Source of the DNA: Myxococcales bacterium
Lineage (GTDB): Bacteria > Myxococcota > Myxococcia > Myxococcales > 40CM-4-68-19
Assembly: GCA_020201435.1 (NCBI GenBank)
Contig: JAIVGS010000001.1
Span: 1 to 54,759, forward strand
Reading direction: 5' to 3'
Length of the DNA stretch: 54,759 nt
Shown here: one piece after another, positions 3,226-53,010 of the stretch
How positions within the stretch are numbered: the first letter of the stretch is position 1
Layout of the letters: every line of letters begins with the position of its first letter
Translations under genes and position numbers: made by a program
Notes under the pieces: generated by a model
What the model was told of the DNA's origin: nothing
Seen by the model: only the letters and a program-made list of their open reading frames with translations
Databases searched by the model: none

Positions 3226-3903
3226 ATGTCCGGCCTGCTGATCGTTCAGACGGGAACAACGCACCTGCACGGCGACTACCCGGCGTGGTTCGAGCGCGCG
3301 CTGGGCCGTTCGATGCCGGTCGTCCGCGCCCACCAGGGCGAGAAGCTCGAGTCCGGGCTCGCCCGCTTTCGGCCGAAGGGGATCATCGTCACCGGCTCGC
3401 CGTTGAGCGTGACGGAAAAAGTGCCGTGGATGCTGGAGCTTGGCGAGTCGCTCCTGCGCGTCGAGGTCCCTGTGCTCGGCGTCTGCTTCGGTCACCAGCT
3501 TCTCGCCCGGGTGGCGGGCGGCGGCGTGGTCCTGAATCCGCGCGGACGCGAGATCGGCACGGTTTCCGTCAAGCTGACGCCCGCGGGCCGAAAGGACCCT
3601 CTGTTTGCGTGGGCGACGTCGGACGAGATCGACGTCCAGGCGACCCACCTCGACGCCGTCGACCCGGTGCCGCCGGCGGCGACGATCCTCGCCTCCAACG
3701 AGAACAGCGCGGTGCAGGCTTTCCGCCTCTCGGAGACGATCGCCGGCGTCCAGTTCCATCCCGAGCTGTCCGCGGCGGCGATGAGAGACTTGATCATGTC
3801 GCGCAAGGAGAAGCTGCTCGCCGAAGGCCGCGATCCCTCGAAGATCGAGGTCCACGAAGTCGCCGCCGGCAAGATCCTGCGCGCATTCGCCGGAAGCCTC
3901 TAA
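3226..3903 (+). CDS. Class I glutamine amidotransferase
   Basis: GVCFGHQLLA nucleophile elbow and GVQFHPE His-x-Glu; ATG 3226 preferred over GTG 3220 because TAGAAT ends 6 nt upstream. Confidence 0.9.
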   Translation: MSGLLIVQTGTTHLHGDYPAWFERALGRSMPVVRAHQGEKLESGLARFRPKGIIVTGSPLSVTEKVPWMLELGESLLRVEVPVLGVCFGHQLLARVAGGGVVLNPRGREIGTVSVKLTPAGRKDPLFAWATSDEIDVQATHLDAVDPVPPAATILASNENSAVQAFRLSETIAGVQFHPELSAAAMRDLIMSRKEKLLAEGRDPSKIEVHEVAAGKILRAFAGSL

Positions 3904-4030
3904 AAGCAAAAGCGCACCGCGAAGGCGCGAAGACGCGAAGTTTTGGGTTTTGCGCTCATTGGCGGTTGTGCTCCCAACCCAACCCCTTCGCGCCTTCGCG
4001 TCTTCGCGGTGCGCAGTTGTAGTTAGCGGG
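3904..4030. repeat. Palindromic intergenic element copy 1 (CGCGAAGR octamer arms)
   Basis: Left arm 3912-3940 GCGCACCGCGAAGGCGCGAAGACGCGAAG; right arm 3986-4014 reverse complement GCGCACCGCGAAGACGCGAAGGCGCGAAG; AAGCAAAA (3904-3911) directly follows TAA stop 3901-3903. Confidence 0.9.
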
Positions 4031-5065
4031 TCACGGTCGAACTTCGTAGAGCACGTGAAATGAGAGCAATTCCATGTGGACGTCGGAAAAGCCGGCGGCG
4101 GTGCAGAGGTGGCGCATGCGGGATTCGGTGAGGCCGAAGGTGCCGAGGCCCTCGCCGCCTTGGGCGAGCGAGACGCTCATGCAGTAGAGGAGGCTGAAAC
4201 CCCAGCGGACGAGCGTCAGCGGGCCCGAGTTCGCGTCGGGATCTTCCTCGCTGCGGACCTCGAACGCGAGCCAGCGGCCGTGCGGCGAGAGCGCCTCGTG
4301 GATGGCGGAGGCGAGCTCGAGCGGACGGGCCGCGTCGTGGACGACGTCGAAGGTCAGCGCGAGGTCCATTCGCGGCAGGCCGGCGGAGGCGTCCCGCGCC
4401 TCGAAATGGACGCGATCGGAAAGGCCCGCTTCCGCCGCCTTTCGCTGCGCGGCCTCGACGTTGGGTGGGTGAACGTCGTACCCGACGAAGCGCGCGTTCG
4501 GAAAGGCTTTTGCGAGCGTGAAGATGGCGCGGCCGCGCCCGCAGCCGATGTCGGCGACGAGGCCGCCGCCCTGCAGCAGGCCCCGAACCGCCGGGACGCG
4601 CGGCAGCCACTCGGAGACGAGCTGCGTCTCATAGAGGCCGGCCATGTCGCGCTCCATTCCTTCCCACGCGTCGGGCGGGTAGGCGTCGGCGGGAATGCCC
4701 TTGCCGGTCACGAACGCCTCGCGCAGCCAGGGCATCGTCGCGATCATCCCGAGCAGCATCTGCAGCGTCCCGCCCATGAACACGCCGCCGCCTTCGTGGG
4801 CGAGCACTTCGGCCTGCGGCGGCGGCAGCTCGTACTTGCCGTCCCGATGGTCGACGTACCCGGCCGCTGCCATCGCGTGCAGCCACTCGCGGGCGTAGCG
4901 CGGATGGATCGATGTCCGTTGCGCGAGGTCCTCGGGCGAGGCCGGCCCTTTGGCGAGGGCGGAAAAGAGACCGAGGCGGTCGCCGATCCCGGCCAGCAGC
5001 GCGGCGACACCGCGGCCCGCGTCGGAGGCGAGCCTGAGCGCGAACTTGACCTCGGGCGAGGCCAT
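4031..5065 (-). CDS. SAM-dependent methyltransferase with N-terminal dimerisation/winged-helix domain
   Basis: LVADIGCGRGRAIFTLAKAFPNARFVGYDVHPPNVEAA motif I/II; N-terminal wHTH region as in small-molecule O-methyltransferases. Confidence 0.85.
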   Translation of the reverse strand: MASPEVKFALRLASDAGRGVAALLAGIGDRLGLFSALAKGPASPEDLAQRTSIHPRYAREWLHAMAAAGYVDHRDGKYELPPPQAEVLAHEGGGVFMGGTLQMLLGMIATMPWLREAFVTGKGIPADAYPPDAWEGMERDMAGLYETQLVSEWLPRVPAVRGLLQGGGLVADIGCGRGRAIFTLAKAFPNARFVGYDVHPPNVEAAQRKAAEAGLSDRVHFEARDASAGLPRMDLALTFDVVHDAARPLELASAIHEALSPHGRWLAFEVRSEEDPDANSGPLTLVRWGFSLLYCMSVSLAQGGEGLGTFGLTESRMRHLCTAAGFSDVHMELLSFHVLYEVRP

Positions 5066-11695: not shown

Positions 11696-12307
11696 ATGCA
11701 ACAACTCGAATTCACGACGCACGGCGGACGGCGCCGAGGAGCAGGCCGCCCGACGACTGGCCGCGTCTCCCACGCGATGCGACCGCGGTTCGCGCGGCCG
11801 ACGCCGGCGCACGTCACCCTGAGGGTCGGGGAGGACGTCTGGAACCTGCGCCGGAAGTCGGTATTGCGGGAGATCCGGGCGTGCTTCGCTGCGGCTCTGG
11901 GCCGATTCGGGCTCCGGCTGATCGAATTCTCGATCCTCGGCAACCACCTGCACCTGATCGTCGAGGCCGACGACACGGCAGCGCTCTCACGGGGCATGCA
12001 GGGTTTGACCATCCGGATCGCGAAGGCGCTCAACCGGCTGATGTCGCGCCGCGGGACGCTCTTCGCGGACCATTACCACGCGCGCCTCCTCACCACACCC
12101 GCCGAGCTCGTCAACGCCATCGCGTATGTGCTCGAAAACGCGGCGCGCCGTTACGGCGCGTCGGGACCCGACGCGTTTTCATCTGCCGCGCCGAACGCGC
12201 GCCTCGCCCTCGCGGTGCCGGTCAGCTGGCTGCTGACGGTCGGATGGCGGCGCGCCAAACGGATTCCTGACTGGATGCTTCAGCGACAGCGCACGGCCGC
12301 GACGTAG
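11696..12307 (+). CDS. RAYT / IS200-like Y1 transposase family protein
   Basis: GGRRRGAGRP basic motif, HUH pair in FSILGNHLHLIVEA, LNRLMSRRGTLFADHYHARLLTTPAELVNAIAYVLENA. Confidence 0.87.
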   Translation: MQQLEFTTHGGRRRGAGRPTTGRVSHAMRPRFARPTPAHVTLRVGEDVWNLRRKSVLREIRACFAAALGRFGLRLIEFSILGNHLHLIVEADDTAALSRGMQGLTIRIAKALNRLMSRRGTLFADHYHARLLTTPAELVNAIAYVLENAARRYGASGPDAFSSAAPNARLALAVPVSWLLTVGWRRAKRIPDWMLQRQRTAAT

Positions 12308-43210: not shown

Positions 43211-43261
43211 CGGCGCAGACTAACAGCTTGAACTTTCTCATGCCGGATGTTACCGGCGCGC

Positions 43262-43759
43262 ATGGCGAATCCACTCGTCGGCATCATCATGGGCAGCAAG
43301 ACCGATCTCGAGACGCTCCAGGGCGCGGTCGAGATCCTGCGCGATTTCGGCGTCGAGCACGAGGTGCGCGTGCTCTCGGCGCACCGGACGCCGGAGGCGG
43401 TCTTGCAGTGGTCGTCGACCGCCGAGCAGCGCGGTCTCGAAGTGCTGATCGCGGCCGCCGGCGGCGCCGCGCACCTCCCGGGGGTGGTCGCGGCGAAGAC
43501 GATCCTGCCGGTGTTGGGCGTCCCGGTCCCGTCGACGACGCTCGGCGGCGCCGACGCGCTGCTGTCGATCGTCCAGATGCCGCGCGGGGTGCCGGTGGGG
43601 ACGCTGGCGATCGGCAAGTCCGGCGCGGCCAATGCGGCGCTGCTCGCCGTCGCGATCCTCGCGGGCAAGCGCCCTGAATTACGGGACAAGTTGCGCGCCT
43701 GGCGCAAGGCGCGCGCCGAAGAAGTCGAGAAAGCCGACGCTTCGGTGCGGGGCGGGTAA
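43262..43759 (+). CDS. purE: N5-carboxyaminoimidazole ribonucleotide mutase (class I PurE)
   Basis: [60 protein letters not shown]. Confidence 0.97.
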
Positions 43760-43864
43760 CGACTTCCAGCGCACCGCGGAGGCGCGGAGGACGCGGAGGT
43801 TTTTTACCAAAAAGAATCTCCGCGACCTCTGCGCTCTCTGCGCCTCCGCGGTGAGATTTTGCTT
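43760..43864. repeat. Palindromic intergenic element copy 2 (CGCGGAGG-type arms)
   Basis: Left arm 43769-43799 GCGCACCGCGGAGGCGCGGAGGACGCGGAGG; right part 43818-43856; ttttgctt (43857-43864, = AAGCAAAA on minus strand) directly abuts minus-strand TAG stop at 43865-43867. Confidence 0.85.
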
Positions 43865-44533
43865 CTACTTGACCTTCACCCCGAGAGCGAGCCCTTCAGC
43901 AGTCGGGATCATCGTCGCGCGGAAGCGGCCGCCCTGTGCGAGCTCCTCGTTGAACTTGCGCAGCGCTTTTCGGCCTTCGTCGTCGCCGGGCAAGTGGATC
44001 TCGCCGAAACCGAAGGCGTTGTCCGCGAGGAGCAGCCCGCCCTCGCGCAGGTGATCGGCCGCCCACGCGAGGTACGCCGGATAGGAAACCTTGTCCGCGT
44101 CGACGAAGACGAGATCGAACGGGGCCTCGGCCTCGATCTCGGGCAGCTTCTCGATCGCCGCTCCGACGTGGACGTGCACCCGCGCCGCGACGCCGGCCTT
44201 GTGGAACGACTCGTTCGCCACCCGCGCGTGCTTCTCCGAGTACTCGAAGGTGTACAGCACGCCGTGCGGCGCCATCCCGCGCAACAGGCAGACGCCGCTG
44301 TAACCGCCGAGCGTCCCGATCTCGACCGCCTTCTGCGCTCCGGCCGCGCGCGCGAGCACCTCGAGGTGGAGGCCGTCGAACTTGCCGACCGCGATCGCCG
44401 GGAGGCCCTCGCGGATGCTGCGCTGGCGGATCTCGCTCAGGACCGCGTCCTCCGGACGAAAGACGCCCAGCGCCCACTCGTGCAGCGCGGGATTGCCCTG
44501 TCCGAAGCCTTTTTCCTCGGGAGATGAAGGCAT
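43865..44533 (-). CDS. Class I SAM O-methyltransferase (COMT-like)
   Basis: VEIGTLGGYSGVCLLRGM, FDLVFVDADKVSYPAYL, GGLLLADNAFGFGEI. Confidence 0.93.
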   Translation of the reverse strand: MPSSPEEKGFGQGNPALHEWALGVFRPEDAVLSEIRQRSIREGLPAIAVGKFDGLHLEVLARAAGAQKAVEIGTLGGYSGVCLLRGMAPHGVLYTFEYSEKHARVANESFHKAGVAARVHVHVGAAIEKLPEIEAEAPFDLVFVDADKVSYPAYLAWAADHLREGGLLLADNAFGFGEIHLPGDDEGRKALRKFNEELAQGGRFRATMIPTAEGLALGVKVK

Positions 44534-51883: not shown

Positions 51884-51996
51884 AAAGCGCACCGCGAAGG
51901 CGCGAAGACGCGAAGTGGTTGGGTTTGGCAACCAACGCCGCTCCACAATGACCCGGTGACCTTAGCGCCTTCTGCCTTCGCGCTGAGATTTTGCTT
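51884..51996. repeat. Palindromic intergenic element copy 3
   Basis: 51883-51916 is identical over 34 nt to 3908-3941 of copy 1; ttttgctt (51989-51996) directly abuts minus-strand TGA stop at 51997-51999. Confidence 0.88.
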
Positions 51997-53010
51997 TCAA
52001 GCAGCCTGCGCGAGCGAGGCGCGAGCGAGCAGGGCGGCGCCGACGACGCCGGCCTGTTCACCCAGCTCCGGCGCCGAGATCTTCAGGGCCTTGCGCGCGG
52101 CCTTCGAGGTGTGAGCGTCGATCTGCTCCATCGCCGCCCGCATCATCCGCGGCGACCCGGTGAGCACGCCGCCCCCGAGCAGCAGCCGCGCCGGGTTGAG
52201 CACGGTGACGAGGTTCGAGAGTGCCACCCCGAGCAGGTTGCCGGCCTCCTCGAGCAACCGGCGCGACAGCTCGTCGCCCTCGTGCGCCGCCCGCTCCATC
52301 GCGGCGGCGGTGACCTTGTCGGGCTCGCCCGCGATCTCGAGCAGCTTCCGTCCGACCGCCGGGTGCCGCTCCCCCGCCGCCCGCGCCGCCGCCATCGCGA
52401 TGCGCAAGTCGTCGCGCGCCCACGCCGCGAGATTGTGTCCCCCCGCGTAGGCCTCGAGGCATCCGCGCTGTCCGCAGCCGCAGAGCCGTCCGCCGGGATG
52501 GACGAGGATGTGGCCGAACTCGCCCGCGACCCCGGAGACCCCTTCGTGCAGCTTGCCGCCGAGGATGATGCCGGCTCCGACGCCGCTGCCGACGAGCACC
52601 ACGATCAGGTCGTCGACTCCCCGCCCTGCTCCCGCCGCCCGCTCGCCCCACGCCGCGACCGACAGGTCGTTCCCGATCCACATCGGCAGCCGCGGCGCCC
52701 GCGCCTGCACGAGCTTCAGGAACGGCACTTCCCGCCAGCCGAGGTTGGGCGCGTTCATCACCATGCCGGTGCCGCGCTCGATCCAGCCGGCGACGCCGAC
52801 ACCCATGCCCTTCATCTCGCCGAACGGCATTCCCGCCGCGCCGCACGCCGTCTTTGCCGCCCGCACCACCGCTTCGGCCACCTGCGGCGGCTCGCGCGAC
52901 AGCAGCCGGTGCTTCTCCTGCCCGAGTACGTGACCGCCGAGGTCGACGACGGCCGCGCGCACGTTGGTGCCGCCGAGGTCGACTCCGACGTAGAGCTCGT
53001 CACGCTTCAT
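51997..53010 (-). CDS. ROK family sugar kinase
   Basis: VGVDLGGTNVRAAVVD, GEFGHILVHPGGRLCGCGQRGCLEAYAGG. Confidence 0.95.
   Translation of the reverse strand: MKRDELYVGVDLGGTNVRAAVVDLGGHVLGQEKHRLLSREPPQVAEAVVRAAKTACGAAGMPFGEMKGMGVGVAGWIERGTGMVMNAPNLGWREVPFLKLVQARAPRLPMWIGNDLSVAAWGERAAGAGRGVDDLIVVLVGSGVGAGIILGGKLHEGVSGVAGEFGHILVHPGGRLCGCGQRGCLEAYAGGHNLAAWARDDLRIAMAAARAAGERHPAVGRKLLEIAGEPDKVTAAAMERAAHEGDELSRRLLEEAGNLLGVALSNLVTVLNPARLLLGGGVLTGSPRMMRAAMEQIDAHTSKAARKALKISAPELGEQAGVVGAALLARASLAQAA

Follow-up and report, generated by a model that had tools for sequence, protein, structure and literature searches.

The intergenic palindrome described here belongs to what we call a new MITE-like family, which is present in high copy number in one group of soil bacteria and is not an intrinsic terminator. 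The element is located almost only beside the 3′ ends of genes and inserts at gene boundaries, and comparison with the sequences of sister species indicates that it takes the place of native signal peptides in-frame within the N-termini of downstream genes. We give a probability of about 0.7 to the reading that it is a non-autonomous, MITE-like mobile palindrome whose surviving insertions lie at gene ends, with a stop-adjacent spacing and in-frame replacement of signal peptides.

The family was first seen in the window, the whole stretch of 54,759 nt that was analysed. Matches to AAGCAAAANNNNANCGCG occur three times in the window (3904 on the plus strand, 43864 and 51996 on the minus strand) and not once in 100 shuffles. 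The earlier note had claimed that the AAGCAAAA end begins exactly 0 nt after three different stop codons, and reading of the sequence bears this out for all three copies: the preceding triplets are TAA (3901-3903), TAG (43867-43865, minus strand) and TGA (51999-51997, minus strand). Gene calls and Pfam place these stops in frame with genes for GATase, O-methyltransferase and ROK, respectively, in agreement with the amidotransferase, methyltransferase and ROK kinase named in that note. Its pairing of copy 1 was also correct, with 29-nt arms forming 27 Watson-Crick pairs, one G-U pair and one A-C mismatch across a 45-nt loop; the RNA fold of this copy has an energy of −74.6 kcal/mol (z −7.4). 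Each of the three copies is flanked by convergent genes, and the opposite ends are also near a stop codon, with stem-to-stop distances of 20 nt (copy 1), 13 nt (copy 2) and 7 nt (copy 3). An Rfam scan of the window returned no family at gathering score. The features are as follows, with G000 standing for the genome of the window and the other G numbers for the genomes compared with it.

3226..3903, plus strand: glutamine amidotransferase (PF00117), upstream of copy 1
3901..3903, plus strand: stop TAA of the GATase gene; the AA of the stop is the first AA of the copy 1 end
3902..4014, strandless: copy 1 in full, a type A palindrome of CGCGAAGG octamers flanked by convergent genes
3904..3915, plus strand: left outer end of copy 1, AAGCAAAAGCGC; with the AA before it, AAAAGCAAAAGCGC
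3912..3940, plus strand: left arm of copy 1, 29 nt
3986..4014, plus strand: right arm of copy 1, 29 nt
4031..5065, minus strand: convergent methyltransferase (gene calls, Pfam); stop 20 nt from the stem base of copy 1 (anchor ACCGCG)
43247..43759, plus strand: PurE-type AIR carboxylase (PF00731); stop TAA 13 nt ahead of the copy 2 stem
43761..43864, strandless: copy 2, type B, built of CGCGGAGG octamers; ends GACTTCCAGCGC (left, preceded by TAAC) and AAGCAAAATCTC (right, minus)
43865..44533, minus strand: O-methyltransferase (PF01596); stop TAG 0 nt from AAGCAAAA
51170..51883, plus strand: TonB C-terminal protein (PF03544), with a stop TGA that G001, G003 and G005 have conserved
51884..51996, strandless: copy 3, type A; occupies the entire gap between two stops that are 9 nt apart in G001
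51997..53010, minus strand: ROK family kinase (PF00480); stop TGA 0 nt from AAGCAAAA

A covariance model search of the 4.76-Mb assembly gave at least 148 two-strand matches. The same model gave 190 two-strand matches on contigs totalling about 1.2 Mb, from which 86 copies were curated after arm pairing; these contigs represent about a quarter of G000 and were picked largely for element content. The genomes used are drafts, mostly metagenome-type assemblies, one of them with 5% contamination, and genes were called by a home-made caller with a hexamer model trained on this genome. The element is about 105-125 nt long. A loop joins its two arms, each a tandem array of the octamer C(G/A)CG(A/G)AGG, and the outer ends are rich in A, for example AAAAGCAAAATCTC, AACTGCAACTGCGC and (GTAAC)GGCTTCAAGCGC. 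Most units span 62-121 nt between stem bases, with an outer end of ∼14 nt in addition on each side. Three octamer types are found: CGCGAAGG (type A), CGCGGAGG (type B) and CACGGAGG. Of 76 typed copies, 71 have left and right arms of the same subtype, and arm 1 resembles the arm 2 of its own copy more closely (0.95) than that of other copies (0.85), so that the two arms change together.

Within the genus, the number of matches ranges from none (G001) to more than 50 (G000, G002 and G003). Of 199 genomes sampled throughout the phylum, only 6 carry the exact arm motif, and the elements of G011 do not fit the arm pattern used. Beyond the phylum, octamer arms with other outer ends occur in cyanobacteria, Chloroflexi, Planctomycetes, Nitrospirae, Acidobacteria, Verrucomicrobia and proteobacteria (L196-L308). 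A literature search with the exact sequence of the octamer motif found no paper describing it and returned one irrelevant match. The octamer-arm repeat thus appears to be widespread but undescribed.

That the element is tied to gene ends is evident from its neighbours. Among the 83 copies with both neighbours called, 33 lie between convergent genes, 47 between tandem genes and 3 between divergent genes, and only 3 of 134 divergent gaps hold an element. Convergent gaps have a median of 110 nt when they hold an element (32 gaps) versus 4 nt when they do not (124 gaps). By called genes, the element ends comprise 114 directed at a stop and 55 directed at a start. The stem starts 11-14 nt past the stop at 65 of the 114 stop-facing ends, versus the same distance at 3 of the 55 start-facing ends (Fisher, 1e-11), and the wider range of 5-24 nt takes in 106 and 11 ends, respectively. 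As a control, ordinary hairpins close to stops on these contigs show no peak, with 2 of 36 at 11-14 nt. The 0-nt distance is the commonest value for stop-facing AAGCAAAA ends, but as a strict genome-wide rule it fails, for it holds at only 6 of 15 such ends, and 11 more AAGCAAAA ends face start codons. What holds robustly is a stem start 11-14 nt past the stop. A related geometry is seen in G010, a genome of the same taxonomic family but a different genus, where most of 45 stop-facing ends are at 5-17 nt, and the same distance test on mixed phyla gave a looser cluster. At L096:3492, the element separates a stop codon from the ribosome-binding site of the following gene, a space of only 9 nt in a sister.

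The sequence of the outer ends suggests how the stop codon is supplied. The ends start with AA (AAAAGC, AACTGC or AACGGCTTC), and the base before it is usually C, G or A at start-facing ends and often T, giving TAA, at stop-facing ends; at other stop-facing ends the AA reads AG or GA, giving TAG or TGA. TAA makes up 47 of 107 (44%) abutting stops versus 181 of 1061 (17%) genome-wide (p 3e-12), and in G010 several copies show the end GGACCAAAGGATC in the form GGAC-TAA-AGGATC. The AA ends and the excess of TAA suggest that the end of the element often completes the upstream stop (T|AA). At some sites the native stop is clearly retained, as at copy 3, where it is TGA in all sisters, and therefore both routes occur.

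The earlier note had also suggested a mobile palindrome (MITE/REP-like) and a comparison of orthologous gaps, in which empty sites were indeed found. At the copy 3 junction, G001 reads TGA-AAGACCAGC-TCA, a 9-nt gap with no element, and at the L047 junction it reads TAG-CCCG-TCA, an empty site of 4 nt. At the site of copy 2, G004, G005 and G006 have a 14-nt overlap of the two genes, and the element is present in G002; further sister junctions are likewise free of it. Since sister species hold empty sites of 4-9 nt between the same two stops, and copy number within the genus rises from none to more than 50, we conclude that the element is mobile. Like bacterial MITEs, it is short, non-autonomous and of high copy number, has terminal inverted repeats and is missing from empty sites in relatives. 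No target-site duplication was recognised in the flanks examined, and a long one is possible at copy 2. Some of the flank bases (GTAAC) at the B-type end are native in G003 at the L056 site, so that the true terminus of this end is uncertain.

How the element is inherited is less simple. G000 and G003 both have it at 10 of 20 tested junctions, yet the copies at shared sites are no more similar (0.57) than non-orthologous pairs (0.55) and often differ in octamer type. Simple descent fails to explain such unlike elements at shared sites, which could reflect either rewriting by gene conversion or hot spots. That these sites were hit repeatedly by independent insertion, rather than inherited with replacement of sequence, would fit this lack of similarity, but we take it as the less likely account: at about 3% per site, independent insertion would give such sharing with a chance of about 2e-10, and signal-peptide sites shared by the two genomes use the same reading frame.

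Besides its relation to the upstream stop, the element has a relation to the downstream gene that the earlier note did not contain. In tandem pairs where the downstream start lies at the upstream stop (ATGA/TGATG overlaps), the reading frame runs through the element. As judged by eye, the signal peptide has been replaced by the element in at least 11 genes of which sisters keep the native version, namely L041:13954, L041:15568, L059:14176, L068:3234, L083:3237, L086:1612, L086:2546, L088:6525, L091:5706, L104:4850 and L104:18003. The clearest case is L083, where ATGAAGAAAGGC... MKKGRPPALLFALAVACGYAPVR in G001 compares with ATGAAAAAGCAA... MKKQNHTTEARRARRTIFCNKNLRALHASVVSFGLCGVACGYAPVR in G000; the start codon and the lipobox are kept, and the middle is filled by the element. 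At six sites (L059, L068, L083, L086 twice, and L088), the signal region of G003 is likewise derived from an element in frame. Proteins with element-derived N-termini include cytochrome c, TPR proteins, a PD40 propeller protein and a LolB-like lipoprotein. In types A and C all frames are open and encode basic residues followed by sequence rich in Leu, Phe and Cys. The element-derived N-termini are probably translated and functional in export. Secreted proteins were not enriched downstream of elements by a crude predictor (8 of 31 versus 168 of 928, p 0.34), and we therefore do not claim a preference for secreted genes. Counting L040:193 and L043:298, an in-frame element serves as predicted signal peptide in 13 genes, 11 of them with a native version in a sister.

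We consider it rather probable that the element works as a portable cassette for gene boundaries, finishing the upstream stop with one end and supplying a working signal peptide downstream with the other; it would have replaced the export signal in at least 11 secreted proteins or lipoproteins, and would itself have stayed open and in frame in two species while the copies exchanged sequence. We argue that an outer end of ∼14 nt that starts with AA would complete or abut the stop (T|AA) and so set the stem 11-14 nt away. Insertion at T|AA would leave the upstream protein unchanged, and selection in gaps of a few nt would remove most other insertions. An RNA hairpin of −75 kcal/mol 12 nt past the stop may in addition slow termination and block 3′ exonucleases, much as E. 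coli REPs reportedly do; it lies where those REPs are said to stall ribosomes (PMC12306157).

The element might instead be mobilised by an enzyme that targets stop codons, or a TAAC or T(A/G)A motif, so that the 0-nt distance would be a target-site signature and not a selective filter. Such targeting would fit the tandem copies with spare intergenic room, 26 of 27 of which lie in the stop-proximal half of the spare gap, the insertions directly after ATGA overlaps, and the recurrence at the B-type end of GTAAC/GTTAC flanks, GTTAC being native in G003 at one site. The offsets, however, span 5-24 nt, many flanks are not TAAC, and the 65 stops at 11-14 nt include 12 TAG and 20 TGA; the flanks revealed no target duplication and the Y1/HUH genes no linked enzyme, and selection would predict a similar picture. 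Of the earlier suggestion that the element is stop-codon-targeted, the strong association with stops stands, but an enzymatic preference is the less likely cause, because purifying selection in tight gaps and ends that start with AA explain most of it.

A Y1 (HUH) transposase-like gene is present in the window at 11777-12307. Y1/HUH genes are common in these genomes, also in the element-free G001, and none of ∼20 loci in G000, nor others in relatives, is flanked by the element. A Y1/HUH transposase was thus rejected as the mobiliser, as such genes occur in element-rich and element-poor genomes alike with no element adjoining. The search, which covered Y1/HUH genes, found no autonomous parent with the same ends near them. 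It is improbable that we are dealing with classic REP/REPIN elements mobilised by RAYT, even though the element is palindromic, extragenic, of high copy number and 3′ of genes in a genome with Y1 genes. REP units are 20-40 nt long, versus more than 100 nt here, and the arms are octamer repeats; no GTAG or CGTC tetranucleotide is conserved at the stem foot in the aligned ends (AAAAGC, AACTGC, GGCTTC); and the strongest Y1 genes carry inverted repeats of their own, unrelated to the element.

Least probable are conserved bidirectional terminators or mRNA 3′-end hairpins that are kept for function and are not mobile DNA: the hairpin is very stable, lies between convergent genes and has T-rich outer ends (TTTTGCTTTT) on some strands, but the element is absent from orthologous junctions and element-free congeners, it sits inside the signal peptides of downstream genes, and a stem followed directly by a U-tract was matched at a single minus-strand site, at copy 1, no better than the shuffle mean of 0.6. 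The bidirectional terminator that the earlier note listed among possible roles is therefore poorly supported. Terminator-like hairpins after stops are scarce in the G000 contigs in general (36 versus 20 in shuffles), and few have a T-tract.

The mobile palindrome that we favour has partial parallels in known systems. The termini of GTAG REPs often provide a TAG stop to flanking ORFs (2013, PMC3733652), and GTAG/CGTC REPs resemble the element in being high-copy palindromes that lie chiefly past the 3′ ends of genes, between convergent or tandem neighbours; the element differs in being about three times longer, with arms built of octamers, an enrichment of TAA instead of TAG and no RAYT link found at the Y1 loci searched. 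E. coli REPs within 15 nt of stops, a distance shared by the stem of the element, reportedly stall ribosomes at termination and reduce translation (ref. 17 in PMC12306157). Compared with that account, the element has a spacing sharply peaked at 11-14 nt and a much larger hairpin. RU-1/RU-2 (YPAL), NEMIS and ERIC are, like the element, non-autonomous stem-loop repeats of 100-200 nt with open frames (PMC2759123; PMC2229807), but they differ from it in sequence, and neither TA ends nor target duplication was seen in the element. A Yersinia repeat is described as forming part of a signal peptide (PMC2759123; review PMC2229807); this precedent concerns few loci, whereas at least 11 genes here have native signal peptides in sisters. 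Rickettsia palindromic elements also lie in frame within coding genes, and as reviewed they are generally inside genes of conserved proteins (PMC2229807), while our element is at gene ends and in signal peptides.

We regard the recurrent, sister-verified replacement of signal peptides as the most novel part of this work. The findings would link a widespread repeat both to hairpins that, in many genes, stand at the edge of the ribosome as it terminates, and to selfish DNA that has been turned into signal peptides again and again. As every frame of types A and C gives a basic and then hydrophobic sequence, the insertions could serve as natural replicates of how easily export signals arise. A separate observation concerns the copy 3 junction of G003 (L121:1069-1501), where a small secreted-protein-like ORF (MKIIAAIIAGLSLTTFG...) lies between the TonB and ROK genes.
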